A program made the position numbers and the translations under genes. 64,000 bases of DNA, from the NCBI GenBank assembly GCA_018287875.1, contig JAGVVL010000009.1:992001-1056000 (forward strand), read 5' to 3'. The notes under the pieces are model-generated. The model saw only the letters and a program-made list of their open reading frames with translations. It made no database searches and was not told where the DNA came from. This DNA comes from Nigrospora sphaerica (lineage: Eukaryota > Ascomycota > Sordariomycetes > Amphisphaeriales > Apiosporaceae). This document shows positions 10,623 to 64,000 of this stretch, one piece after another. How positions within the stretch are numbered: position 1 is the stretch's first letter; each line of letters starts with the position of its first letter.

Positions 10623-12053
10623 GTAGTAGTAGTCGCCGCCCCGTAGTACGACGGGGTGGTGCGGCCCCCACGAGCGGGAGCGCTGCGAGGGACGCGGGGC
10701 GTAGTAGCCAGCAAGTGCTGCAGGCTCGCGCAACCGGTCTGGTGGGACATCCTGTTTCGGCATCTTGGGTTCCCGCGACTTCATATTCTTTCTCCTCCCC
10801 TTTGGGGGTTCCAGCGGGTATTCTTGGGGAAGGGTCTCTTACCGACCCTCCTTTAGGTAGTGTTTGTTTTCAGCGTGCTGTGTTTCCCCCGTTTCCGCGG
10901 GCGTGTTATTTCCCTCCTGTTTTCCAGCGCGGGTGCAGGTGTGGATATTCTTCTTTGGAAAATCGAATAGGAGATTGCAACTGACAGATAGTGTCACTCC
11001 TTGAAGAAAGATAGTTGCAACGCCATAGTCCCGGTGGTTCCCATGGTATATAGTGCCACTAGATTATGCCTCCGATGGATCGATGGCTACCTCATCGTAC
11101 CCCTTGACGGCCATGAGAGGGGCACATCGTTTTTCTCTACCAGGGCCGATGGTCCTGCCGAAAGTGTTGATCCTAGCTACCGCAGCTTAGGTAAGTACCT
11201 CTTAGGCATCACACTTGCTCTAGGTTTCTTGATTGTACACTCGAGGTTGAGAAGAGGCAGGTACGTGTGTACATAGGTAACCAATGTTACAAAGTCTCCA
11301 TGATACCCGAATTTGGCAGTCACCTCACGGGTTACATCTTAAGTAACCTTTTGTTCACGCCTTGGAGTAAGAGTCAACGAGCATGAGTTGTCTTGCCAAA
11401 TGGCCCGACCCCCATGCAAGCGCTTGCTGGGCTCATTAATCTGGCCTCACAGAGCCCGACGCTGCTGCTGAACTAAGTACCAAACTGGCCAGAGCTTGAC
11501 GGTGGTGCTCAGTGAGAGGCAAGTTGGCTGCTTGCTATTTCCCATCCAGTTGAGAGCAAGTAAAGCTTCCAATCCTACTCTCCTGCTGGATGGAGAGGGT
11601 ATAGGTTTCGATGTCCAAGCTTAGCCAGCGCCTTTCCCGGCATCTATTAGTCCCTTCGCTTTCCCTTTTCGACGATTGCTGCTCTTTTTCCTTCATACGT
11701 AAAATCCAGTTTGCTTGCCTATCTTGGAAAGCCCTTGCTCATTCACGTCAGAACACGTAGGCCTTCCTGTCTGTCTTCACGTGGCCTTCACAAACCCACG
11801 TCCCGCCTCACCATCTCGTCCATCCCACCTCCTCCATCCTCAACATTGGAAGCTCATCTTTGCTTTCAGTGTCGCTCGCATTTGGTGCCATTGCCCACAA
11901 GATTCCCTATACCGTCTTGTGGGACAATTTCGCTCGTTTCCGCCTGTGACACTCTTCTATGGGCAGCCAAGCACAACCCCCAGGGCTTTCCACGTTTGCT
12001 TCAGCTTTCCCATTCATCTTGGTGAGCCTTCATACCAAACGTAGCGCTTCGAC
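10623..12053. other. Intergenic region upstream of the Argonaute gene
   Basis: About 1.4 kb, markedly AT-richer than the gene to its left. It contains recurring AGGTA/TACCT words around 11190-11280 and, from about 11640, a CT-rich stretch typical of a fungal leader and promoter, which probably serves the Argonaute gene at 12054. No supported coding sequence. Confidence 0.5.
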
Positions 12054-15000
12054 ATGATGGCGCCCCCCACTCCTTCCCGGAGTTACCAATGCTCCCCGAA
12101 ACCCCGGAACACCCTAAGCCCTCAACATAGCCGGACGCCCCAAAGACCCCAATCGTCCCAGAGCTTCCCGAGTTCAACGAACACAGCCCCGAAGATTTAC
12201 ACGTAAGTGATCAAATTTGTTGTTTATCTCGTCTTAAACACCACTGACAGGACAATATAGAACGAAGAACCTTCTCACTGGCGAGGAAGAGACAACTCCG
12301 CTCCCAGAGCCAGCTGTGGAAAGATTGGAGAACAGTATAGCAGATGCTATTTCCGCGCATGCCAAGAAGAGCAAGAATTCAGCCGATACAAAGTTCGCCC
12401 CGCGTACAGCATACGGCGAACATGGTAATAAGGTGGTAGTCTGGTCCAACCACTTCCTTGTCCATTTCGATTCCAACGTGGTCCTACACGTGTACAATAT
12501 CAGACTCTCTTCGACCAAAGCCCGAGCCAAAGAACGAGACACCGAGGGTCGAATGCGAACCCAAATCATCAAGCTCCTTCTCGAGGAAAACGAGCACCTC
12601 CAGGGTAATAATGGGGGTAAAGATATCGTGACGGATTTCCACTCGATACTCATATCCAAGAGGGACCTCGGCGACAGGATTGTCGCCACCGTCACATACC
12701 GCCATGAGGATGAGCAGCAAGCCGCTGCCAACGCCCCTTCGTACCTGGTTGAAATCTGGAGGGAAAAAGGCAGATCGGGACTGCGCCCCTCCACTTTTCT
12801 CAAGTACATGCGATCCACAGATATTACAAAGCCGGCTGACAAACCCCACTTTGGAACCCTCGTGCAAGCCCTCAACATCTTCCTCAAATTCCATGCCAGA
12901 ACCCACGAAGACCTGGTTATCCCGGGGCGGCGGAATATCTTCTCATTCGCACAAAACAGCAACCCCCGGTCGCTTGGCGGTGGTATTGTGGCCATGCCTG
13001 GCTACTTCGCGAGTGTTCGGCCCGCCGCAGGTTATTTCTTGGTCAACATCGATCTTAAATACGCTGCATTTTATGACCCGAACGAGGAGCTGAAAGAGGT
13101 GGCAAAGCTCTGGTCTCCAGAAAAATGCGGGCTGGACCGGTTTTTGCGGTTTGTGCGTGTCATGACCAAGCACCTCGACCAGAACAAAACGAGAACCATC
13201 TGTGGACTTGCCAAGCCAACTGATGGCCGCCCCGAGGGCAAAGATGACCCTGCGATTGTTCACCCACCGCAGGGTGCAAAAGACCGACAGACCTTCCAAC
13301 TCATCGTTCTGGGCGCTGGCCCAAGAGATGTACATTTCTGGATGGAGGACACCAACAGCAGGGGATATTATATCAGTGTCTGGGACTTCTTCCGCCAAAG
13401 TGAGCTTAGCGTCTTGTCTTCCAAGCCTTGTGAGGATTGGTACTGACTTGTCACTAGACCACAGACATATTCGCATGGACCCCAATACCCCAGTGGTGAA
13501 TGCGGGCTCGCCGAAAAGACCATTCTACCTCCCTGCAGAGGCTTGTCAGGTGCAGCGGGGCCAGAACGTCAAGAGTACTCTGGACCTCGACCAAACAGCC
13601 AAGATGGTGATGATTGCCCGCAAGACCCCTGCGGAGACATTCAACGTGATCAGGCCCGAGGGCGCAGAAATCGTGGGTCTGGCACCTACAACCAATCCCC
13701 GCTTAGTAAGTCGAGTCTTGTCGTTTTCTGCTTGGTAGTCATTCTGACTGTCTAGCGCCACTTCGGAATCAGACCCCAGTCCTCACTGGTCACCGTCAAT
13801 GCACGCATTTTACCACGACCGGATATATACTACTTTCCACGCCCAAAAGGCTCGTCTCAGTACATTGGCGGACGTGCCAAGCTAGGCGAGGATGCTACCT
13901 GGAACATGATCGAAAGCAAAGTCATCAGGTCTGGAACAATGGTGAACTGGCGCTGTCTTACGCTGTGCCCTATTGAACCGATCCACAGAGAGAAACTTGA
14001 GTCGGGTCTATTTGAGGCGTTCAAACGGCAGGGAATCACCATGTCCAAACACAAGGCAACCATCACTGAATCAGTCGACTTTCGCAGTGAAAAAAGTGTT
14101 GCCCAGTTTTACGACAAGCTGAGGGCACTGGCCCGGGAGCTGGACATATTGGTTGTTGTCTTGCAAGATGAGAATCAGGTTGTATACAACATGGTCAAAT
14201 CATTCGGCGATATCCACAGAGGTCTCGTGACGCAGTGTATTCTCAAGCACAGGTCTACCAAGGGATCTCAGCTCTCCCGAGCGCAATACTTCGATAATGT
14301 TGCATTGAAGGTCAACATGAAACTCCGAGGCGAAAATCACTTGGTGGACTCGCCGGCTTGGAAGCTCATTCGGCAGAACGAAACGCTAGTTATTGGAACC
14401 GGCGTGACGCATCCAACAGGCTCCTCGGTAGGCGGATCCTTGAGTTTTGCCGCTTTGGTTGGCATGGCCATGCCGGAAAGCGGTCAGTACGTGGCTCGAT
14501 TGTCTGTTCAGGAAGGTGGCCAACAGATGATCGAGGGGATCGGCAACATGTTTTCCGGGTTGCTCAGAGTTTGGGCATCCAAACACGATGGAAGACCTCC
14601 AAAGAACTTAGTGTACCTTCGGAACGGCCTTTCCGAGAGCCAATTCGACAAATTCCACGCCAAAGAGATCACAAAGCTGCGAGAAGCCTATCGAAAGTCT
14701 TTTCCCGAGGGTGTCAGAGAACTGCGTGTCTTTGCGGCTTCGGTTCAAAAGGGCCACCACAAAAGATTTGCGCCGACCAAGCAGGATGATGCCGACAAGA
14801 CAGGGAACTGCAAGGCTGGTCTTGTGGTGGACCGTGGCATTACCGAGCCTCGCTACCTGGAGTTCTACCTCCAAGCCCACACGGCCTGCAAAGGCACCGC
14901 GCGACCTATTCACGTCGTTGTCGCCTGTGACGAGGTCACCGGGCATCTGAGTGACGAGATCTTGGCGAGCTTCCAGGGCAACAGAAGCGATTTCATCCAA

Positions 15001-15210
15001 AACCTGATTTACACTTTTTGCTGGGATCTCGGTCACACCACGCGAGCAACCAGTCTGCCGGCCCCTATCTTTTACGCCCGCCTTGCCGCCGATCGAGCAA
15101 AACGATACATCGCAGAGGAGTGCAGGAAGAATTGCAAGGTGACAGTGGCAAAAGCTCAGAAGATTTTGGAAGTTCATCACCGACTGAAGGACACTATGTT
15201 CTTTGTTTGA
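12054..15210 (+). CDS. Argonaute protein with degenerate catalytic tetrad
   Basis: Four exons (12054-12202, 12261-13399, 13458-13705, 13756-15210) joined by introns of 58, 58 and 50 bases, all GT-AG and frame-consistent, give 996 residues, a normal Argonaute length. Domain order: Pro/Ser-rich leader (1-50), N and L1 region (VVVWSNHFLVHF; later NPRSLGGGIVAMPGYFASVRP), PAZ (begins about FLVNIDLKYAAFYDP), L2, MID and PIWI. The MID pocket for the guide 5' phosphate is intact: Y656 and K660 in VYNMVKSFGD, Q672 in VTQC, K697 and K701 in LKVNMKL. The PIWI slicer positions are not: IGTGVTHP has Gly728 for Asp, QQMIEGI has Gln769 for the Glu finger, YLRNGLSE has Asn802 for Asp, and FYARLAADRA has Arg954 for His. 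Expected role is small-RNA-guided silencing (QDE-2/SMS-2 family) without cleavage. GC content is lower than in neighbouring genes. Start: first of two adjacent ATGs in frame. Confidence 0.93.
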
Positions 15211-16885
15211 TGCATGGTTAATACAGAAGGTAGCCGGCCACTCCCAAGGTAAAACATCTCGTCTGCAGGCTTTTGTCGGGAATCTGGCAAATGCGTGGTC
15301 CAAGGGCTGTCGTCATAATATCATCATGTGCTACCTTGACGGGACGTCCCTGCGGCAACTGATATGATAGTTCCTTTCCGGCCACGCCAGGGCGGGTTGA
15401 AAGAGCGCATCGCATTGTGCTAAACGGTCGTTTAACTTTTGGGTGGAGTGTTTTCCAGGTAGCCTTACGTCGCTCCGCACAGGGTCTTTTGTTGACACGG
15501 GTGTATTCTCTCATGAGATCCTGTGGGTTATTAGGGACTGTTTTCAATTGACTCCTCGAGTTTACTACTTAATTACAATGTGTTCTTCTAAGTGGTGTTT
15601 GCCCGGCTTTCTTTCCCTCGACGATAGGCTGTTCCACGAAAGGGGCAGGGGCTACTGCCCTTGACTCTTTTCTGTTTCACAGAGCTAGTGTCAAGCAAAT
15701 CAAGGAAACGCAACAGCCACATGACCTCAAGGTACAAGAAGGGGGATCGCAATGGCGATTAGAGGTTGCGTGAAGGGATAGTTGTATTTGAAGTTCAAAC
15801 CCCTGGGCCTCAGAAATGGGTGGATATATCATCATCGCATATGGGCAAATCTGGTGAATTAGGCTTCCATGTATGTGGAGTCCCCGAAAGCTGAAGAGCA
15901 TTACATTACGGGTTGAGGTCGTAACTCGTGCACCACGAAGCGTCCAAGAGAGAGATCACGTACCCCTCGTCCCACGCCCGTGGACGACCTGGCTGCTGGT
16001 GAATCTTTTAACACCACCACGGGCAACACTCCCTCCCGCACCGTGCGCGCCCTATCGCGCAGCATTGCCATCTCTCTCAAGATTACGAAGAGCGCCCGGA
16101 TATGTGGCCGAATGCGGGCGCTTATGGGGGTGCAGGGGTTTTTGCGAGGCCAAGATGCTCGGTATCCGCGGGGGGATACCCCTACGGGACCCGTCGCCTT
16201 TGCTGCGCAGGTCGAGCATTGCTTGAAGGGAGAGCGGCCAGGATTGTGTCCCGATGGGACAAATAGTCCGTTGTATTCCCGAGGCGAGGCTCCAGATGGA
16301 GGAGTATGGATGTCGGATCTGGAGGCGATCACGGATGCGAAGGTGGCTGCGTGAAGCTACGAGTCTGATAGACCAGGATATATACTTCTTTTCTTTAAAA
16401 CGGATCCCGTTGCGGGTCTATACACGATAATTTCAGACGCTCGATGTATCGAAACTCAGGAACGCTGTATGCCTCCTAGAGGAACAATGACTTCGCCGCC
16501 CTCAACTTAGCTCCTGATGGGACCATGGGCCAATGAACAAGAGTCCCCCCCCGCCCCAGGCTTAACAGCACCGCACACGAGACGACTAGGCACAACACGA
16601 AATCCTCACCACGTCTAGCCAAGATACCTTTGCCTCGGCCCTCTTATCGGCGTCACCGCTTATTCGCTATCCGTCATCTCCTATTCCTCGCCGGACCGCG
16701 ACGGTAGCGGCTGGTATAACGGGTCTCCGTCCTTGTTTCCAATGAGCGGCACTGGTGCCGGCACCGTCTGCTGCGCGCGATGCGACTGCCGCATCAGTAC
16801 CAACGGCTGGACTTCGCTGGAGCGGCGGTGGCAGTCGCCATGTCGGCTCTGCGCTGTCCTCCAGCGGCGGCGGAGCTGGCACCGT
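15211..16885. other. Intergenic region with one unexplained open frame
   Basis: About 1.7 kb downstream of the Argonaute gene. The first 700 bases are AT-richer and show nothing coding. The open frame at 15917-16354 is listed separately. The final 500 bases are the 3' flank of the minus-strand Cys-rich gene. Confidence 0.5.
15917..16354 (+). pseudogene. Possible coding remnant, 146 open codons
   Basis: The frame is open from the codon after a TGA at 15914 to a stop at 16352-16354 and has a protein-like composition: a basic start (KRPRERSRTPRP), a helical middle (ALSRSIAISLKITKSARI) and an end with GVWMSDLEAITDAKVAA. There is no ATG near the beginning; the first in-frame ones are in MRALMGV. 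It may be a single surviving exon, a degraded gene or chance. I recognise no family, and no clear donor or acceptor flanks it. Confidence 0.22.
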
Positions 16886-24377: not shown

Positions 24378-25639
24378 CTACTTACACTCGTTGGAGGCCT
24401 TGCAGGTGCCCTGGGAGCAGCACTTGGGGCCGGAGAAGCCGTTGCCGCCGCACTGGCCCCAGAGGGCGGCGCAGCTGGGGTTGGAGGTGGGCTGGGGCGT
24501 GCTCTGGGTGGTGGTGGGGGAGCCGCCGCCGTTGTCGGGGGGGTTGCTGCCGCCCGGGCTGCCGCCGGGGTTCTGGAGGGTGAGCAGGCCGGGGCGGTAG
24601 GGCAGCTCGTTGTAGGGCGGGTTCTTGGAGGGGTCGCGGCCCTGGTAGAGCAGCTGCAGGTTGCAGGCGTCGACCTCGAAGGTCTGGTCGTTGGTGCTGC
24701 GCACGAGCTCTCCGTGGCTGATGTCGGTCGTCCACGTCGCGCCGCTGTTGACCTGGCCCGCGAACGGGTTGTTCCACGTCGCCGCCGCCGGCGTCCAGCT
24801 GCCGCCCAGCGACGTGGCCGTGAAGGACCGGAAGTAGCGCCGCCCCGAGCTCATGGCCTCGACGATCATGAGGTACTGGTTCACCCCCTTGACCTTGTAC
24901 ACCTGCACCGCCTCGAACAGGTTGTCGCGCGTGTCCGTCATGATGGTCTGGTACGCGCTGCCGAAGCTGCCCGGGAAGTTGCCGATCGGCATGCTCGACC
25001 GGTAGATGCGCCCGTTGTCGCCGCAGAAGAACATGTACATGGTGGTGCTGCGTGGCGCGTCCCCCCCCCCCCGGTTAGTTTACTTTTGTCCCGCCCGCGC
25101 CGCGCCCGTTTCCGCTAGGGGGGAGCTCCTTACCTGTCGGCGATGAGGGTCTGGTCGATGGGGCCGGTGCCGCTGTCGCTGATGGAGCCCGAGAAGAGCG
25201 GCTGGGCCGCGGACCAACCGTTGGCGTTGGTCGGGTTCGTCGACGTCTTGTAGATGAAGGGCGTGGCGCCCCACTGGTAGGCGAGGATCCAGATGTTCTT
25301 GGGCTTGAAGAAGAAGAGGGTCGGGGCGACGGCGCGCTGGGTCATGCCGTTCTGCGGCGCCGTCGCGAGGTCGCGCAGGTTGGAGACGAGGCCGAAGTTC
25401 ATGGAGCCGTAGTCGCCGTTCTCGTACTTGGTCGCGTAGACGAGCAGCTTGCCCTCGTAGGGGGCGAGGGTGAAGTCCTTGAGCGACAGCCCCGGGCTCT
25501 TGGGCTGCGCGAGCGGCCCGCCCGCGTCCTTCCAGCGGAGCCCGCTCGTGGGGATGGTGCACTGCGCCGAGACCAGCGCCGCCGACGCCAGCAGCGCCGC
25601 CGTGGCGCCCGCCAGGTTGGCCTTGATGTTGCCCAGCAT
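24378..25639 (-). CDS. GH62 alpha-L-arabinofuranosidase with C-terminal CBM1
   Basis: Two exons (25134-25639, 24378-25047) flank an 86-base intron with a CTAAC branch point and a run of 12 C/G; total 391 residues. It removes arabinose side chains from arabinoxylan outside the cell. Residues 1-25 are a signal peptide ending ALVSA. The GH62 catalytic domain shows its hallmark segments [59 protein letters not shown] and NLFEAVQVY; the family's catalytic residues correspond to D55, D162 and E214. A Ser/Thr/Pro/Gly linker (about 320-355) leads to a fungal CBM1 ([15 protein letters not shown]). That CBM1 ends in KASNECK, without the usual pair of Tyr before the last Cys. The start is the ATG at 25639, with a TATA element about 120 bases upstream. 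Expected to be induced by xylan or arabinan. Confidence 0.95.
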
Positions 25640-29694: not shown

Positions 29695-30864
29695 GACGGG
29701 CAAAACGTTAAAAACCGGGCGGGCGGCGTGTAATCAGCCTGCGGCCTTTTCTTTCCACTTCCGGGTGCGGGCGTGGGCGGGTGGGCGCGAGCGTAGATCC
29801 CGCGGGGTAGCAGGCAGGGAACAGGCAGGCAGGCAGGCAGAGGGACAGAAAACAGGAAACGGATAGGATGTGGCGGCCAAGGCGAAGGCGTACTACAGAG
29901 TGCCAAAACGTGTACACGAGTGCCTAGGACCGCAGGCGCGATGCTTATGAGACTTCCTCCCTGGACCTCGCGGCAATCGGGAAGTGGGCTTGCGTGGCGG
30001 TTCGGCTCCCTGGAACAAATCGGACAGCGGCTTCCGGTCCTTTCCTTCCGACCCCCATCCCTTTTTCATGCGCGCAATGTCATCCGTTGCCTTGTTATGA
30101 CGAACGGATGTTGGAAGGGGGAAAGGCGGATATCTGCCAGGGTGTATGTAGGGGGATAGGAGGGGAACAAGACCAGCCGGAACGGGTCGTTTCATCTGCC
30201 GGATGCAAGAGGGTGGAGGAGCAGCAAAGCGACTTCTTCGTTATCGGCAGCCGTGGCCGCAGAAGAGTTTTTCTTCAGTTGCCGAGCTCGGGGGCGACGG
30301 GGCGACGGGGCGCCAGGGGTGGGCTGACGTTTGCTCGGTTGCTAGGGCCCAGCGGCGCAGCATGGCAATCAATCATCAATCGTGCGGCGACCTGTACTCT
30401 TCCCGGTGGGGACGCTCGTGGAGTGGAGGAGGGCATTCCGGCCAGTTTCGACGAGGGCCACGCGACTCTGCATTCGATGGAGAATGACTGGTTCCAGGAC
30501 TTGACCGGCTCCCAGCATGGCCAAGGACGGCAAGGTTCCCAAGCGTTATTGCCCGTCTAGTAGCAGCTCAAGTCCGGGGTGAGACGGGCTGGAGACTGTG
30601 GCACCCCCAACCAGCGCTACGAAACGGGGCTGCCCGAGTGGGCTTTTCACCCGGGACAAGGTCCTCGATCCGCCAGCAGGGGCCGTGTATGATAGGCATG
30701 ACGAGTTTCATGGGAAAGGAAACCATCGCCCTAAGCCCTGAGGGTCGGCGGCCGTCCCAAAAAACCGGGATTACCCACCGGCGAAGCCAAGTTCTACTAC
30801 TCCGCGCTTACCTACCTCTTCTCTCCCCTGCCAGCAGCTGCTTCTCACCTCACACACGCACATC
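29695..30864. other. Shared divergent promoter region
   Basis: About 1.17 kb between the methyltransferase (minus) and sulfotransferase-like (plus) starts. It includes a GGCA-type short repeat (AGGCAGGCAGGCAGGCAG near 29820-29840) and the paired GGGGCGAC words near 30295. No gene supported. Confidence 0.55.
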
Positions 30865-31665
30865 ATGGGCGGCTCCCTCTCCAAACCCGATCCGTCGCGG
30901 ACGCTCGAGGTCGTCGGCGCCGGCTACTCGCGCACGGGCACGAGCTCGGTGCAGCTGGCGCTGGAGCAGCTGATCGAGGGTCCCGTCTACCACGGCGGCA
31001 CGCAGATCTGGCTGAGCGGCGACGACGCGCGCGTGCGCCTCTGGGGCGAGGCCTGCGACGCCAAGTTCGTGGCGCACGACCACGAGCGCACGCTCAAGCT
31101 GCTGCGCGAGGCGGTGCGAGGCTACGCCGGCCTCGTCGACATCCCCTGCATCTGGTTCCTGCCCGAACTGCTCGAGCTGTTCCCGGACCTGCGCGTCGTG
31201 CTCGTCACCCGCGACCCCGACGCCTGGTGGCCGAGCTTCGCCAACATTCTCGGCAAGCTGCCGCCGCTCTTCGGGCTCCTGACGGCGCCCCACCCGGGCA
31301 TCCGCTGGATCCCCAAAACCCTCGGCGCCTTCCACGCTTCCGCCGACGACATCCTCGTCGCCGCCGGTCGTCCCCCCGGCGTCTACGGCCCCTTCCTGCT
31401 CGAGCACTACCAGGACCAGGTCCGCGCCCTCGTGCCCGCCGACCGCCTCCTGGTCATGACCGTCACCGACGGCTGGGGGCCCCTCGCCCCCTTCCTGGGC
31501 AAGCCCGTGCCCGCACACGCCTTCCCCCGCGTCAACGAGCGCGAGGCCTTTGACCACCAGGCCCGGGCCATCCTCGCCCGCCTCGTCCTGACCGCCGTCG
31601 GTATCCTCGGCGCCGCTGGCGGTGGCCTCTACTACGGCTGGCGCCTCTGGGCCAAGCGCTCCTAA
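30865..31665 (+). CDS. P-loop sulfotransferase-fold protein with membrane tail
   Basis: Single exon, 266 residues. The nucleotide-binding loop is VVGAGYSRTGTSSVQLALEQL (positions 16-36), the 5'-phosphosulfate-binding motif of the fungal Sulfotransfer_4-type family (usually GLPRTGTxSLxxAL). Further family blocks are VDIPCIWFLPELLELFPDLRVVLVTRDPDAWW (3'-phosphate motif) and VNEREAFD near the end. The last 25 residues form one hydrophobic helix (LTAVGILGAAGGGLYYGWRLW) and a basic end, suggesting membrane anchoring. The N-terminus MGGSLSK fits an N-myristoylation signal (Gly2, Ser6, Lys7). Members of this family are widespread in ascomycetes, and their acceptor substrates are mostly unknown. The start is the only ATG with the P-loop at the usual distance. 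Confidence 0.88.
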   Translation: MGGSLSKPDPSRTLEVVGAGYSRTGTSSVQLALEQLIEGPVYHGGTQIWLSGDDARVRLWGEACDAKFVAHDHERTLKLLREAVRGYAGLVDIPCIWFLPELLELFPDLRVVLVTRDPDAWWPSFANILGKLPPLFGLLTAPHPGIRWIPKTLGAFHASADDILVAAGRPPGVYGPFLLEHYQDQVRALVPADRLLVMTVTDGWGPLAPFLGKPVPAHAFPRVNEREAFDHQARAILARLVLTAVGILGAAGGGLYYGWRLWAKRS

Positions 31666-54497: not shown

Positions 54498-55292
54498 TCA
54501 CCACGTGCCGCGGTACGGCGCCAGGGCGTCGTGCAGGCGGCCCCAGCGGCCGCCGTGCCAGTCGCGGATCTCGGCCCACTCGGGGATGGTCTCGGCGAAG
54601 AACATGAGCCAGCCGCCGACGATGATGTCGGCGTAGTCGGGCTCGGGGGTGCCGGCGAGGAAGGGCGAGGCGGCGTCGGGGCCGGCGAAGCGGTAGTGGG
54701 CGGCGAAGGCGGCGAGGGACTTTTCGAAGGCGTCGAGGATGGGGCGGCGCGCGTCGCCGCGCACGATCATGTCGTCCCAGGAGCCGGTGAAGCCGGCGCG
54801 GCGCATGAACTCGGCCTGGCTCCGGGCCGCTGTGGCCGGGTTGAAGGGGAAGGCGGCGGCGGCGAGGGCGGCGACGCCGGGGAAGACGGTGTCGGCGTGG
54901 GCGTTGAAGGCGGCGTAGAGGCCGACGGGCGCGCCGGGGCGGAAGAGGGGCGGCGCCGCCGCGTAGCGCGCGTCGAGGAAGACGGCAATTTCGAACGAGT
55001 CGCCCACGACGGTGCCGGGCTCGCGCCGGTCCTGCACGATGGGCAGCGTGTGGAAGGGCTCGCCCGACGCGTGGTACCGCGACGGCGCCGCGCACAGCCT
55101 CTGCCGCACCGTCGCCACGTCGGCCAGGTCCACCCACTCGGTCGCGAAGCGCGCCCTCTTGAGGTTGAGCGCGTATCGCACCTTCCACGGGTTCGGCGCG
55201 AACGGCCGCACCGGCGGCCCCGACGCGATGTCGTAGAAGGTGAGGTCGGCGTCCTCGGACGCCGAGCCGGCCGTCGCCGTGCTGGTGCTCAT
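54498..55292 (-). CDS. Glutathione S-transferase-like protein
   Basis: Single exon, 264 residues from the ATG at 55292. The N-terminal thioredoxin-like domain shows LTFYDIASGPPVRPFAPNPWKVRYALNLKRARFATEWVDL, the start typical of a fungal GST group (UstS and beta-etherase-like), followed by the HTLPIVQD cis-Pro segment and the GDSFEIAVFLDARY helix (the ES/DS motif that contacts the glutathione gamma-glutamyl). The C-terminal all-helical domain runs from about residue 110 and ends with DIIVGGWLMFFAETIPEWAEIRDW. The catalytic Ser/Cys is not certain; the Ser in IASGPP is a candidate. Expected activity is glutathione conjugation or thiol-dependent cleavage in the cytosol. Neighbouring DNA shows no cluster of biosynthetic genes. 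Confidence 0.88.
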   Translation of the reverse strand: MSTSTATAGSASEDADLTFYDIASGPPVRPFAPNPWKVRYALNLKRARFATEWVDLADVATVRQRLCAAPSRYHASGEPFHTLPIVQDRREPGTVVGDSFEIAVFLDARYAAAPPLFRPGAPVGLYAAFNAHADTVFPGVAALAAAAFPFNPATAARSQAEFMRRAGFTGSWDDMIVRGDARRPILDAFEKSLAAFAAHYRFAGPDAASPFLAGTPEPDYADIIVGGWLMFFAETIPEWAEIRDWHGGRWGRLHDALAPYRGTW

Positions 55293-58200
55293 GGTGCTCC
55301 GGGAGGGAGAGAAAAGGGGAGAGTGCCTGTTACCGGGGGAGAGGGCTTGCTACCGGGACAGAGTGGCTAATACACGGGCAGGAGATGGTGGCGGCGGATG
55401 GGGAGAATGGAAGATGAGCGAGACGAAGCGCGGGCACTCAGTCGTGACGTTGATACTGAACTGCTGCTTTCATATGTCTTCACGATGTTGTCATCGGCCT
55501 TAAACGCTTTATACTGGGCTTTAGAGGCCGCTAATGGCGGGTATTTTGATGGGTGCTCCAGCCGGCGCATCACGTGTATGATGCTCATCGTGAATCACTG
55601 CGAACCATTTGGCTTGGCAGCATTAGCCCGTCTTACATACCGAACCGAGCCACCGCTCCCTCACCTCCCATCATTCGCGTTCATAGTCACTCATGCGATA
55701 CTCACCACAACTGTGATCTCCCATCATCCGCATTTGGTGATGATTCATTCAAGATGATATACGAATGTCGGGCTGGCTCTCGCCTGCAGGGCCGCCAACC
55801 AGCCGCCGTATGACCGGCAAAACCAATTGCAGCTGACTTTTATACTTGAGACGGCCAGGTCACAGAGATTTTAGCAACGTCCCGTCGCAATTGAATATGC
55901 CGACATCTTTCAAGTAGGGGTGACAACAGAGTCCGATTTTACTTCGTCGCGAAACTCAGCTTACTACCGTGACCCGTCGGCTCAGTCCCAACGGAAGAGA
56001 GATCAGCTTCAGTGAAGTACTTCGGTGCGCTGATACTCATCCCTCCTCGACCTCTTCATGCTGTCAACCTCAGGGCTCCCTGCTTTTCTTTCTTGTCGCT
56101 CTCAGCTCTCCTCATGTTCCCCCTTTAATTACTATTCAACCCACCGGACCGAGCCGTAGGTGGGCGAAGGATCAGTGTATGGCCCACACTACTCGATAGC
56201 CCCGGGCGCAATGGCCGGACGACAATGGCGAATCGGGGGACACAGCCGTCTTGGCGAGTTGAAGGTCCCAATAGATTTGAGGGCAATGTCAGTAAGCTGA
56301 GTACCCCACCTAGTTAAAAACGATCTCATGAATTACGAATAAACAGAATATACCCCCCTCGTCTTCATCAACCTTCGTTTATTGCTGACGCGTGCGTTAG
56401 AGATCGAGGATATAGGTACATATGAGAATAGATAGATGACCTCAAGCCAACCCAGATTCTGTCCCTTCGCTGAAGAAATGAAGAATATTTGGCCACGCTC
56501 ACAAACGATATTTTTATATTCGTTCTCCGTAGATGGGTCGGGCAAATCTCCGATTTGGATCGGTGACGGGTATCTTCAGCTTCCGTTAGATTTCGGCGTC
56601 GATATGCGCTTATCAAGAGGAACCACGTGGTCACTTCTTATGTCTGCCCCTCTCGTCTTGCGCCCCATCGTTGTCCTCTTCGTCCTTTTCGTCCGAGCCT
56701 TCCTCCTGCGCTGTTCGACGGGATAGGAATTTTTCTCTGGCGCCAGCAGGTACCAAGTGAAGCTGGCCTCCCGCCGCGCCTCAAGCGGAAAGGCGTACAT
56801 GGAGACTGGCGAGAGTGTGCTGCTGGGATGCGTGCGCCGCAGAAAGGGCGGCGACATCTTGGGTCTGGGTAAAGGGTTCTTGGGCCCGCACTGATAGGGT
56901 CAGCGAGAACCCATACGACGCCGTAGGTTACACTGACATGATGCTGCTGCTCTTCCTGCCGGTAACATCCGAGGCAGATCGGATATCTAAAAACTGATGG
57001 TAGTTTTACTGTGGAGAGTAAGAGGGGCGGTCAATGTAACAGTGGACTCGTCGACTTCATGGTTCATAGTCGCAGCCGAGTTATTAGATGGGGGAACCCT
57101 GAACACCGGGGGGTATTTTCCCTTGTGCGGCGTGGCCTTCAGCAGATTGGACGGAAGGGTATCAGGAGTCAGCTGAAGAGCCTGCATGCCGAGCCACACT
57201 TGGCTCGGGTCGTGCTTCATCTAATCTTCGGATGCCGAAGGCATAACGACCAACAGAACTAAAGAAGTTCGTTCAGAACAGAACCAATATTCGCCCCAGT
57301 CGGCTAAGTCAAACGAAAGTCATTGTTCTTAACTCTAGCGCCGTAACCAAGGCGTTAAGTCTTGACAGCTTAGCGTAGAAACAGCCGCACGTTGGGTTGC
57401 TTCCTTAATGGCCCTTAAAACCTTGAAACCCCATAGTGAGAGAAAGAGCGAGAGCAGAAGAGAGGTAGAATTTGTTTGTGTGTATGTGTATGTGTATATG
57501 CAGGCGGAGCCGCATAGCGGACGGGCACTTCCTATAGACAGCCAAGCGCTCAGAAGAAACCTGCAGGGCCTGCTGATCCTGCCGAAGACGTTGAAGACAG
57601 CTATGGCCAGCGCCAGCACGCCATTTCTGGGGAGGAACCTCTTCGGGATATGCGGTAAAGAGGCGCCAGGCCGGGACGCGTAGCTGGCGGGCGAAGACTG
57701 CATCCAGTTGGCGAATTCACTCGTCGGCATGGCCCTCGACTATTACGTCCAGTCACAGGACAGGAGAGCCGGTGTTGGGGACCACGAATGGGGACTAGAA
57801 ATGTTCGTCTGCCGACTCTTCTTCGGTGCTTTCGCCAGACTGGGCTAAATTTCTCAAGCTGACATGTCCAGGTTTGACTTCAAGTTTCTTTCACTCTCGG
57901 AAAAGGAACTTGAGAACAGCCGCCCGAAGCGCGCCTGGAGAAGACGAGGACACGCGGCTCCTGCAACCTCCTTCTGAGGGTCTCGGTTGTATTGGAAAGC
58001 CTTTTGGGAATGGGTTGTAGCTAATGAGGCACGGGAGGGGCTCTGTTTTTTTTATAGCATTGCGACACCATCACTCTCTTCAAAATGGCGGGCGAAACAC
58101 AGGACGGGTATTGGCAGGCCGTACTGCTAAAGGAAAGAGTTTCTTAGGTGGCGTATTACCTACCGGGGACAGCATCCCCAGTGGTGGCGACGTCGGTGTC

Positions 58201-60562: not shown

Positions 60563-62173
60563 TTACACCATCTGGCCAATGCCAAGGTGGGCAGTATCCG
60601 CCTTGACAATGCGCAGAGTGTTGGTGTTGCCCATGCCGCCCTTCCAGCCCTGGACGACGACCAGGGTGTCGCCCTCGGAGATGACGTTCAGCGACAGTGC
60701 ATTGGACACGGCCCACTTGATGCGCTTGTCAACATCCTCCTGCCAGTTGACCTTCTCGAAGTCGGGCTTGGGCTCGGGGATGTGGAAGGGGTAGACACCG
60801 CGGTACAGGTGACCGTACCGGGAGGTGCTGGCATTGCGCGTCACCATGAAGATGGGGCAGACGGGGCGGTACTTGGAGATGAGGCGGGCCGACTCGCCCG
60901 AGGTGGACAGGACAATAATGCCACCGGCGTTCAGGTCCAGCGAGGCGCGCACAGCGGCCATGGCGCAGGACTCGGTGACGCTGACGGGGCGCTTGACCAT
61001 CTGGCACATCTCCTCAAAGTGGGTGACGTAGGGGATGGTGTTCTCGGCCTTGAGGCAAGCCTCGTGCATCTCGGCCACGGCCTCCTGGGGGTACGCGCCC
61101 TTGGCCGTCTCACCCGATAACATGACGCAGTCGGCACCGTCGGTAACGGCGTTGCCCACGTCCGAAATCTCGGCACGGGTGGGGCGGGGGTTCTTGATCA
61201 TGGACTCGAGCATCTGCGTGGCGCAGATGACGGGCTTGCCGGCAATGTTGCACATGGCGATCAGCTTCTTCTGGGCGGCGAACACCTCGGCGGCGGGAAT
61301 CTCGATACCCAGATCACCACGGGCCACCATGACACCGTCCGTCTCCTTGAGGATGTCGTGGAAGTTGTTGAGACCCTGTCGGTTCTCGATCTTGGCAATG
61401 ATCTGGATGTGCTTGCCCTCCTCGCCAAAGATCTCGCGGATATCCTTGATGTCCTGGCCGCGGCGGATGAAGGAGGCAAAAACCATGTCAACGTTGTTCT
61501 TGACACCGAAGCGCAGGTCGGCCTTGTCCTTCTCGGAGAGGGCGGGCAGATCGACGTCAGTGTTGGGCAGGTTGACACCCTTCTTGGAGCTAATGTGGCC
61601 GTTGTTCAGGGCCTCAACCTTGAGCGTCTGCTCGTCGACAATCTCGAGGACCTTGAAGGCCAGAATACCGTCATCGACATAGATAATGCGGCCGGGCTGG
61701 ATGACCTTGGTGATGTTCTTGTAGTCGACGTACATGTTCTCGGTGTCACACGCGGTGGCGTACTTCTCGTCGGTGGTGATGTTCATGATGGTGCCGTGGG
61801 AGATGGGGAGATCCTCATCGCCCTTGGTGTTGCCGGTGCGGATCTCCGGGCCCTTGGTGTCAAGGGCAATGGCAATCTGACGACCCGGCTGGGCCTTCTC
61901 GGCGGCACGGGCATTGTCGATGACGGACTGGTGGTACTCGTACGAGCCGTGGGAGAAGTTCATGCGCACCACGTTGAGACCCTTGGTTCGCAGCTTGTTG
62001 ATGGCCTCGACCGAGTTGGTCTTGGGGCCGATGGTGCAGATGATGGAGGTGCGACGAAGGTTCCTCTCGGGCTTGTGGGCCGTGTCGAGCGAAGCAAGCC
62101 ACTCGACCCTGCTGCTGACCGACAGGTGGTCGAGGGCATTGTTGGCCGCGGAGTGCTGGCGTTGGTGAGGCAT
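60563..62173 (-). CDS. pyk: Pyruvate kinase
   Basis: Single uninterrupted frame, 536 residues, the usual length for fungal pyruvate kinase. It converts phosphoenolpyruvate and ADP to pyruvate and ATP, the last step of glycolysis in the cytosol. Visible family features: [17 protein letters not shown] and [16 protein letters not shown] (Arg and Asn of the active site), [12 protein letters not shown], the B-domain lid (about 120-220), the active-site signature [11 protein letters not shown] with the catalytic Lys, [12 protein letters not shown], and [23 protein letters not shown], ending with an allosteric C-domain ([19 protein letters not shown]). Codons are highly biased to C-ending forms, as expected for a strongly expressed gene. 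The start [26 protein letters not shown] is followed directly by the conserved [10 protein letters not shown] segment, so the gene is complete. Confidence 0.98.
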
Positions 62174-64000
62174 GGCGACGTCGGGCGGTCGGTTATGGGG
62201 GGTAAGAATACGGTGTGGGATGCTGGGAAGAAGAGGGCGGATGGCTCTCTAGCGGGGGGATAGTCAGCTTATCTGCGGACTCGTCGGTGACCGAAGGTGC
62301 GCAGGGATGACGGGGTTGGTGTTGAGGGGGTGTTGAGGGTGCGGAGTGTCCGGTACAAATAGACCGGGAAGGGGGGGCAGGGACAAATGAGTCGGACCGA
62401 GTTGAATGTCCAGGTAAAGGCCTCGCGCAGTGGTTCGATGCCGGCCCCAGACACGGTCTTCTTCGCTAGGAGCAATAGTAGGCTAGGGACAAGTGCAATA
62501 GAGGCCGAGCGGATTGTGCGAGGACTTCCTGCCAAGCGGCTCAACGGAACTCTGGAAAGGGAGGGGTGGGGGATTGAGTTTTCTGCGTGGCTCCGTGCTA
62601 CCTACCTACCTCTTGCAGGAGAAGCGAGTCAAGCGCGTACGTCCAGCTGTCAGGGGCAGACGCAGAGGGGCAATTGATTTGTTGGTTCGAATAAGGGAAA
62701 CGGCAAAGGCAAGCACCGCAACTCGCAAGTCTTTCTTTATATGGGCAATGGCTGATGCCGGCGGAGGGGTAATGGGGAGAGCGGGCGACGTGGGGGTAGG
62801 CACGGATGTGGTATCGGGATCAGAAATAGAAGCAACGGCCTACCTCTACCGGGATCAAACACGGCTCTTGCAGCTGACGTCTCGAGACGGGGGACCTCTG
62901 GTGAGTGGGCGACGGGCTTGGTATTGTTTCGTAGGAGTTGGCGATTGAAGGGTCGTCGTGGAGAGATTTTTCTGTTTCGTTTTGGCTTTTATTATCAACC
63001 AGTAGCTGGCCTTGGCTGCGGCGTGGGTGTGTTGGCCGAAGGCGGGAGAGCAGCTGCTGCTTGCTGGCTTTGTTTTGGGGGAGCTCCGCGTGGATGGGAG
63101 GGCAACGCCAGAAAAAGTGCCTCACAGGCCGGGGCGACCCAATGAAAGGCCACTGCCCCTCACCGTTGTCCCTCCATCCCACGGAGATTGGAGATTTGCC
63201 CGGGCTGGGTTGGCTGAGCGCGTGGGTTGTGCGTGGGAGATGCCGTCCGGCCGCGTCAGGCTTGCCTCCCATCCCATGCGGGCTGCGAAGCTCCGTCCGT
63301 TCCAACCGTGCCAATCAGCCACGGATGTGAGGCCTTCCCGCCCTGCATCGCGGCCGCGGCGAGCGCAGGTCCATGTGGACTCGGATCGGCCTGATTCCCA
63401 GGGTCCTTTCCTCAACGTTTCGCACTTCGTTTCCTGTCCATGTTTGCGCCCGTGCCCGTCATGCCCATCCTACCCTTGGGCTGGAGGGGGGTGGTGGGGA
63501 GGGGCAAAGAATTGCACCCATGCCTGAAATCGCTGTGCTACCACGAGCCCCGCCGTGCGAGATCGCTTGCCAATAGATGCCGCTCGTGCTGCCCTCGCGC
63601 TCTTGGCTTGGAGGGACGCCAAGGAGGGGCAGCTGCAGTGAAGCTCTGACGTACCCACCGGGGAGCTCAGGCGGAAACTGCCAAACAGCCAAGCCTGGCT
63701 GACCTGCGTTGATCGGGGTTCCGGCCCGATAAGGACCAGATAAAGAGCTGATGACAATGGAGACCTGAATGGATGACTCAGCTTGAGCTTGCTCGCCTCC
63801 AGCTCGCCTCGCCTGTAAACCTGCCCCATCTGCCCCGCTGTTAGTGGTTGCTTGCTGGTATGGAGAGGGTCCGTTGGCCAGCCGGCGGACACCTGGTAGC
63901 CATAGCGTGACACCCGCACCTGTCACGAGCAGGGGAAAGTCGTTGTCGGTAGGGTCGGATAGATGGATCCCCGCGTAGCGCCAGCCTCCCTGTCTCCAGT
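62174..64000. other. Upstream region of pyruvate kinase
   Basis: About 1.8 kb to the right edge, expected to contain the promoter and leader of the highly expressed pyruvate kinase gene. It includes CTACCTACCTACCTC at about 62609-62623. Short frames on both strands show no domains. Nothing else recognised. Confidence 0.55.

Follow-up and report, generated by a model that had tools for sequence, protein, structure and literature searches.

Can an Argonaute that has lost every catalytic residue remain a working protein in a fungus, and what could it do without cutting RNA? The question is raised by a gene of Nigrospora sphaerica on the (+) strand at positions 12054 to 15210 of a window of 64,000 nucleotides (the whole stretch analyzed, C33:992001-1056000) from an assembly of 51.6 Mb in 33 contigs. 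Its product, referred to here as the study protein, was described in an earlier note on this DNA as an Argonaute with all four slicer residues replaced, and both this loss and the codons given for it were borne out by alignment and codon check. Homologs from fungi, short introns and the tree positions of the genome's Argonautes fit a filamentous ascomycete.

The catalytic tetrad and its recent loss

When the study protein was aligned with human AGO2, Arabidopsis AGO10 and fungal homologs, the replaced residues fell on the catalytic columns, and an intact Asp/Asp/His was not found there (AGO2 numbers are counted on the full-length AGO2 chain). Gly728 (GGC, 14401..14403) occupies the position of the first catalytic Asp (AGO2 D597), Gln769 (CAG, 14524..14526) that of the catalytic Glu (E637), Asn802 (AAC, 14623..14625) that of the second catalytic Asp (D669) and Arg954 (CGC, 15079..15081) the fourth catalytic position (H807), all on the (+) strand. 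Slicing Argonautes carry the tetrad DED[D/H], and the study protein reads G-Q-N-R. Its two close orthologs that span the site, P0018 and P0011, both retain a complete D-E-D-H, and a single nucleotide change separates each of the four codons from one encoding the residue seen in the orthologs. The Asp-Glu-Asp-His reference used in the earlier note holds for these two orthologs and for the paralog on contig C7; in the fetched QDE-2-like ascomycete proteins the fourth residue is Asp, and excerpts of a fungal survey give Asp as the commonest residue at this position (PMC4290597).

It is very improbable that slicing persists with these unusual residues, or that the four replacements are sequence errors. 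Variant tetrads do exist, both as DED[D/H] in our census and as the DD[HDEK] described in the same survey excerpts, where the two leading acidic residues of DDH are reported to be well conserved in fungal Argonautes (PMC4290597). In the study protein, however, none of the four positions retains a carboxylate. Sequence error is countered by the absence of any gap around the tetrad sites in the alignments of the study protein, P0018 and P0011, by the presence of the gene in the assembly as one copy, and by the improbability of four separate assembly errors.

The census against which the loss was judged comprised 35 fetched homologs, obtained through three word-based protein searches (two of which scored the best 8000 candidates), together with the two paralogs of the same genome, and is a sample of fungal Argonautes. 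All four positions were readable in 31 rows (29 homologs and both paralogs; 21 fungal or fungal-like, 9 plant-type and 1 tardigrade). The tetrad was DED[D/H] in 30 of these, the remaining one being P0019 from Amylostereum chailletii (D-S-N-D), and only the study protein had all four residues replaced.

P0018 was the nearest ortholog among the matches listed (305/434 identical residues in MID-PIWI, 70%), followed by P0011 (304/488, 62%, over the same domains), while P0034 (257/384, 67%) covers the N-terminal half only. In a tree of 24 rows, the study protein, P0018 and P0011 formed one clade with support of 100/100 and a stem of 1.32 within the QDE-2-like ascomycete group; unresolved forks surround this clade, within which the fourth tetrad residue is H or R. 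End branches measured 0.28 for the study protein, 0.19 for P0018 and 0.18 for P0011. Because the other two readable members keep DEDH, the tetrad loss belongs, on the sequences compared, to the lineage of the study protein and not to its clade. The earlier note had suggested that the protein could belong to a separate clade; the clade is real, but none of the homologs readable at the site shares the four substitutions. P0011, P0018 and P0034 make up a divergent group of ascomycete-type Argonautes whose tetrad, where it can be read, is DEDH and not DEDD, and their sources are Sequence Read Archive or metagenome contigs.

Gene structure and guide-binding residues

The gene runs from an ATG at 12054 to a stop codon at 15210 in four exons encoding 996 aa, and an in-frame stop lies upstream of the start codon at 12042. 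Ten splice combinations gave an open frame, and only the one yielding 996 aa had GTAAGT/GTGAGC-type donors at all three introns, each of which also contains a CTGAC branch-like motif. Exon 1 (12054..12202), placed by splice enumeration, carries the start codon and an S/T/P/Q-rich N-terminus without the RGG repeats that the C9 paralog and some of the homologs carry. Intron 1 (12203..12260, 58 nt, GTAAGT..ATATAG) precedes exon 2 (12261..13399), which encodes ArgoN, linker 1 and the first part of PAZ (Pfam ArgoN and ArgoL1; 67% identity to P0034). At intron 2 (13400..13457, 58 nt), the residues reading into the donor (RQSEL) are common to P0034. Exon 3 (13458..13705) completes PAZ and enters linker 2 (66% identity to P0011 residues 1-70; Pfam PAZ, with ArgoL2 below the cut-off), and intron 3 (13706..13755, 50 nt, GTAAGT..GTCTAG) leads into exon 4 (13756..15210), which encodes the end of linker 2, MID, PIWI and the stop codon (Pfam Piwi, 183 bits; 70% and 62% identity to P0018 and P0011). 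All these features lie on the (+) strand. The protein follows the order of the eukaryotic AGO subfamily (N, L1, PAZ, L2, MID, PIWI), and exon 4 was modeled with a per-residue confidence score (pLDDT) of 88.5, a single-sequence fold of the same exon having been discarded at a pLDDT of 37. The claim of a whole-length frame across three introns stands, with intact splice sites; the interval originally highlighted (13756-15210) is exon 4 alone and not the whole gene.

The guide-binding pocket had been called intact, which is correct for the 5'-phosphate pocket of MID, where Y656, K660, Q672, K697 and K701 are kept (14185..14322), as is the C-terminal R959 (AGO2 R812; 15094-15096). It does not extend to two seed or backbone contacts: the guide-contacting AGO2 R710 is replaced by G845 (14752..14754), and R792, which contacts the seed phosphate, by H939 (15034..15036). 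Both arginines were lost on the branch of the study protein. P0018 and P0011 share with it the clade, the MID pocket and two replacements common to the clade (Gly for AGO2 R635 and Phe for Y804), but differ in keeping D-E-D-H together with the equivalents of R710, R792 and G674.

Selection or decay

The loss suggests either a recent switch from RNA cutting to small-RNA holding only or else early decay of the gene. Under decay, a third Argonaute that is no longer needed would be drifting at its PIWI residues before a first stop or frameshift has appeared, a reading that we rate as unlikely, though of real weight. To distinguish the two, row-unique changes were counted over 413 MID-PIWI columns, leaving out those where under 10 of 12 outgroups had a residue, or where the study protein, P0018 or P0011 had a gap. 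The study protein had 41 such changes, P0018 29 and P0011 48, and the difference between the first two was not significant in a relative-rate test (P 0.19); an apparent excess obtained without P0018 (65 against 35 for P0011, P 0.0035) was superseded by this comparison with the nearest row. At variable columns the study protein and P0018 were equal (25/251 each), whereas at conserved columns the study protein had changed at 16/162 and P0018 at 4/162 (P 0.012).

Several of these observations are what decay would produce and weigh against a retained function. The 16 conserved-column changes match chance (16.1 expected), as relaxed constraint would give, so that changes fall evenly over conserved (16/162) and variable (25/251) columns, whereas the orthologs' changes avoid conserved columns (P0018, 4 with 11.4 expected; P0011, 11 with 18.8 expected). 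All 16 lie in PIWI and none in MID, and conserved PIWI columns near the catalytic acids are among those lost (G807S, P818T, R845G, R939H, A940T and R961K). A confinement of losses to PIWI could not be established, as the uniform domain test gave 9/78 lost in PIWI and 5/107 in the rest (Fisher P 0.096, or 0.36 without the three acids); a first form of this contrast (16/136 conserved PIWI against 0/25 MID columns) was dropped, not being significant under that one rule. When a neutral and a selected phase of free lengths were fitted to the branch, the best fit was almost all neutral. Without the R710 and R792 equivalents, seed binding may also be weaker. The GC content at third codon positions of the study gene (0.615) was the lowest among five genes compared (paralogs, 0.676 and 0.697; two neighbors, 0.855 and 0.902), as decay might leave it.

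Other results are harder to reconcile with drift. No stop or frameshift interrupts the 996 codons, where ~5 stops would be expected under full neutrality at the observed rate (P 0.006-0.011), the splice sites are intact, and conserved MID columns were lost at 0/18 under the uniform rule. The variable columns show no excess, although neutral evolution over the same time should put a branch far ahead of a constrained one; the tie therefore indicates a rate that is not neutral overall, provided that the ortholog's variable columns are under some constraint. Random placement of 41 changes on all four catalytic sites has P 8.5e-5, and a recent neutral phase atop a P0018-like branch striking all four has P 3e-6; both values are post hoc, since the finding was picked for exactly this loss, which lessens their force. 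Overall, under the same proviso on the ortholog's variable columns, the study gene is slower than neutral as judged from its sequence, with its excess on conserved PIWI positions, and random decay fits poorly with the four-site odds, the lack of stops and the ordinary pace of the variable columns. Purifying selection on the frame, as originally claimed, is an overstatement: the absence of stops and the variable-column rate favor selection, but conserved columns are not avoided as they are in the orthologs. DNA of the orthologs for a ratio of nonsynonymous to synonymous changes (dN/dS) was sought in viral contigs, with no match, and in prokaryote contigs, where 11 pattern matches included no relative.

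Repeat-induced point mutation (RIP) was considered as a cause and was not supported, with TpA/ApT at 0.56 in the gene against 0.72 in the window. The ratio (CpA+TpG)/(ApC+GpT), though, was 1.24 in the gene and 1.12 in the window. Two of the four tetrad changes would also be A to G by the inferred ancestral codons, which speaks against RIP.

A possible role without slicing

The reading we favor, by our estimate a little better than an even bet, is that of an intact third Argonaute that lost slicing recently on its own lineage, retained its domain layout and its grip on the guide 5' end, and likely serves as a competitor or buffer for small interfering RNAs (siRNAs). It starts from the replaced tetrad, the open frame, the MID pocket, the predicted fold, the two DEDH orthologs and two complete-tetrad paralogs, all of which are read from the sequence. 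The genome has three Argonaute loci, those on C9 (DEDD) and C7 (DEDH; on a long branch in another part of the tree) having complete tetrads, as well as two Dicer loci and matches to RNA-dependent RNA polymerase (RdRP) at four places. With this machinery siRNAs should exist, and slicing need not rely on the study gene. The study protein would be unable to cleave, would still load small RNAs and would act without cutting: once the first catalytic residue was lost, the other catalytic positions and nearby PIWI residues would have been free to change, and the protein could take up Dicer-made siRNAs or siRNA duplexes while cutting neither passenger strand nor target. Such uptake would compete with, or buffer, the slicing Argonautes. 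Excerpts of two reports make this the first choice and recruitment the second: catalytically inactive Schizosaccharomyces pombe Ago1 was found mainly with double-stranded siRNA (PMC13136243), and deletion of moago2 in Pyricularia enhanced RNA interference (RNAi) against transposons and mycoviruses (PMC7979813). A bolder version is a tentative proposal that we place well short of even: replacement of all four catalytic residues would have turned a slicer into a sponge within the time separating ~70%-identical orthologs, and selection would have kept it to hold siRNAs, as a dedicated regulator or antagonist of RNAi in the fungus itself, the weaker grip on the seed being part of the change.

Alternatively, the study protein might recruit silencing machinery (in transcriptional or meiotic silencing, or in DNA methylation of transposons) instead of competing with slicers, which appears improbable. 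Its anatomy would be identical under both readings, and animal non-slicing Argonautes silence through partners. MoAGO2 is reported to be required for copy-number-dependent methylation of a retrotransposon, according to excerpts of the Pyricularia report (PMC7979813). Against recruitment, the complete-tetrad orthologs point to an ancestral slicing role, and no link of the gene to chromatin or meiosis turned up, although no search aimed at either was made. Over both modes together, we give a non-slicing function roughly two and a half times the weight of decay.

The remaining surroundings of the gene comprise, by Pfam, a GH62 with CBM1 (24381-25079), a sulfotransferase (30742-31662), a glutathione S-transferase (54501-55349) and a pyruvate kinase (60566-62248). 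GC content is ~52% at 12001-16000 and 58-60% in adjoining 2 kb bins, and no Rfam match reached the gathering score in the 64-kb window. One RdRP match (L011/L012, G000:C16:403890-405323) carries an in-frame TAG, reflecting an intron or a decaying copy, and the RdRP on C12 has stops between matches, as from introns.

Argonautes that do not slice are familiar from animals: human AGO1, AGO4 and the WAGOs of Caenorhabditis elegans have lost tetrad residues and kept guide binding, and AGO1 carries Arg at the fourth catalytic site, as does the study protein. These are separate losses in another kingdom and with different partners. Among fungi, P0019 shares a partial tetrad loss and a Gly at the R710 site but is a basidiomycete protein, far off in the tree, that keeps two of the four tetrad residues; it may be an independent case of partial loss. 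QDE-2-like ascomycete Argonautes (N. crassa QDE-2, structure 2yhb; the C9 paralog) have the same domain order and MID-PIWI fold, but only ~28-35% identity, DEDD in those fetched and, in C9 and several others, an RGG-rich N-terminus. For MoAGO2, on the excerpts cited above, the likeness is confined to the proposed working mode, an Argonaute damping RNAi run by others. Among the open-licence papers listed by searches on dead or variant fungal Argonautes, no title or abstract opening named a tetrad-less fungal Argonaute, nor did a term search in one review (PMC7763443) find one. A fungal case of complete loss, accompanied by tetrad-bearing close orthologs and two complete paralogs, would amount to a natural experiment in Argonaute action without cleavage, and would bear on whether fungi employ catalytically dead Argonautes in tuning RNAi against viruses and transposons.
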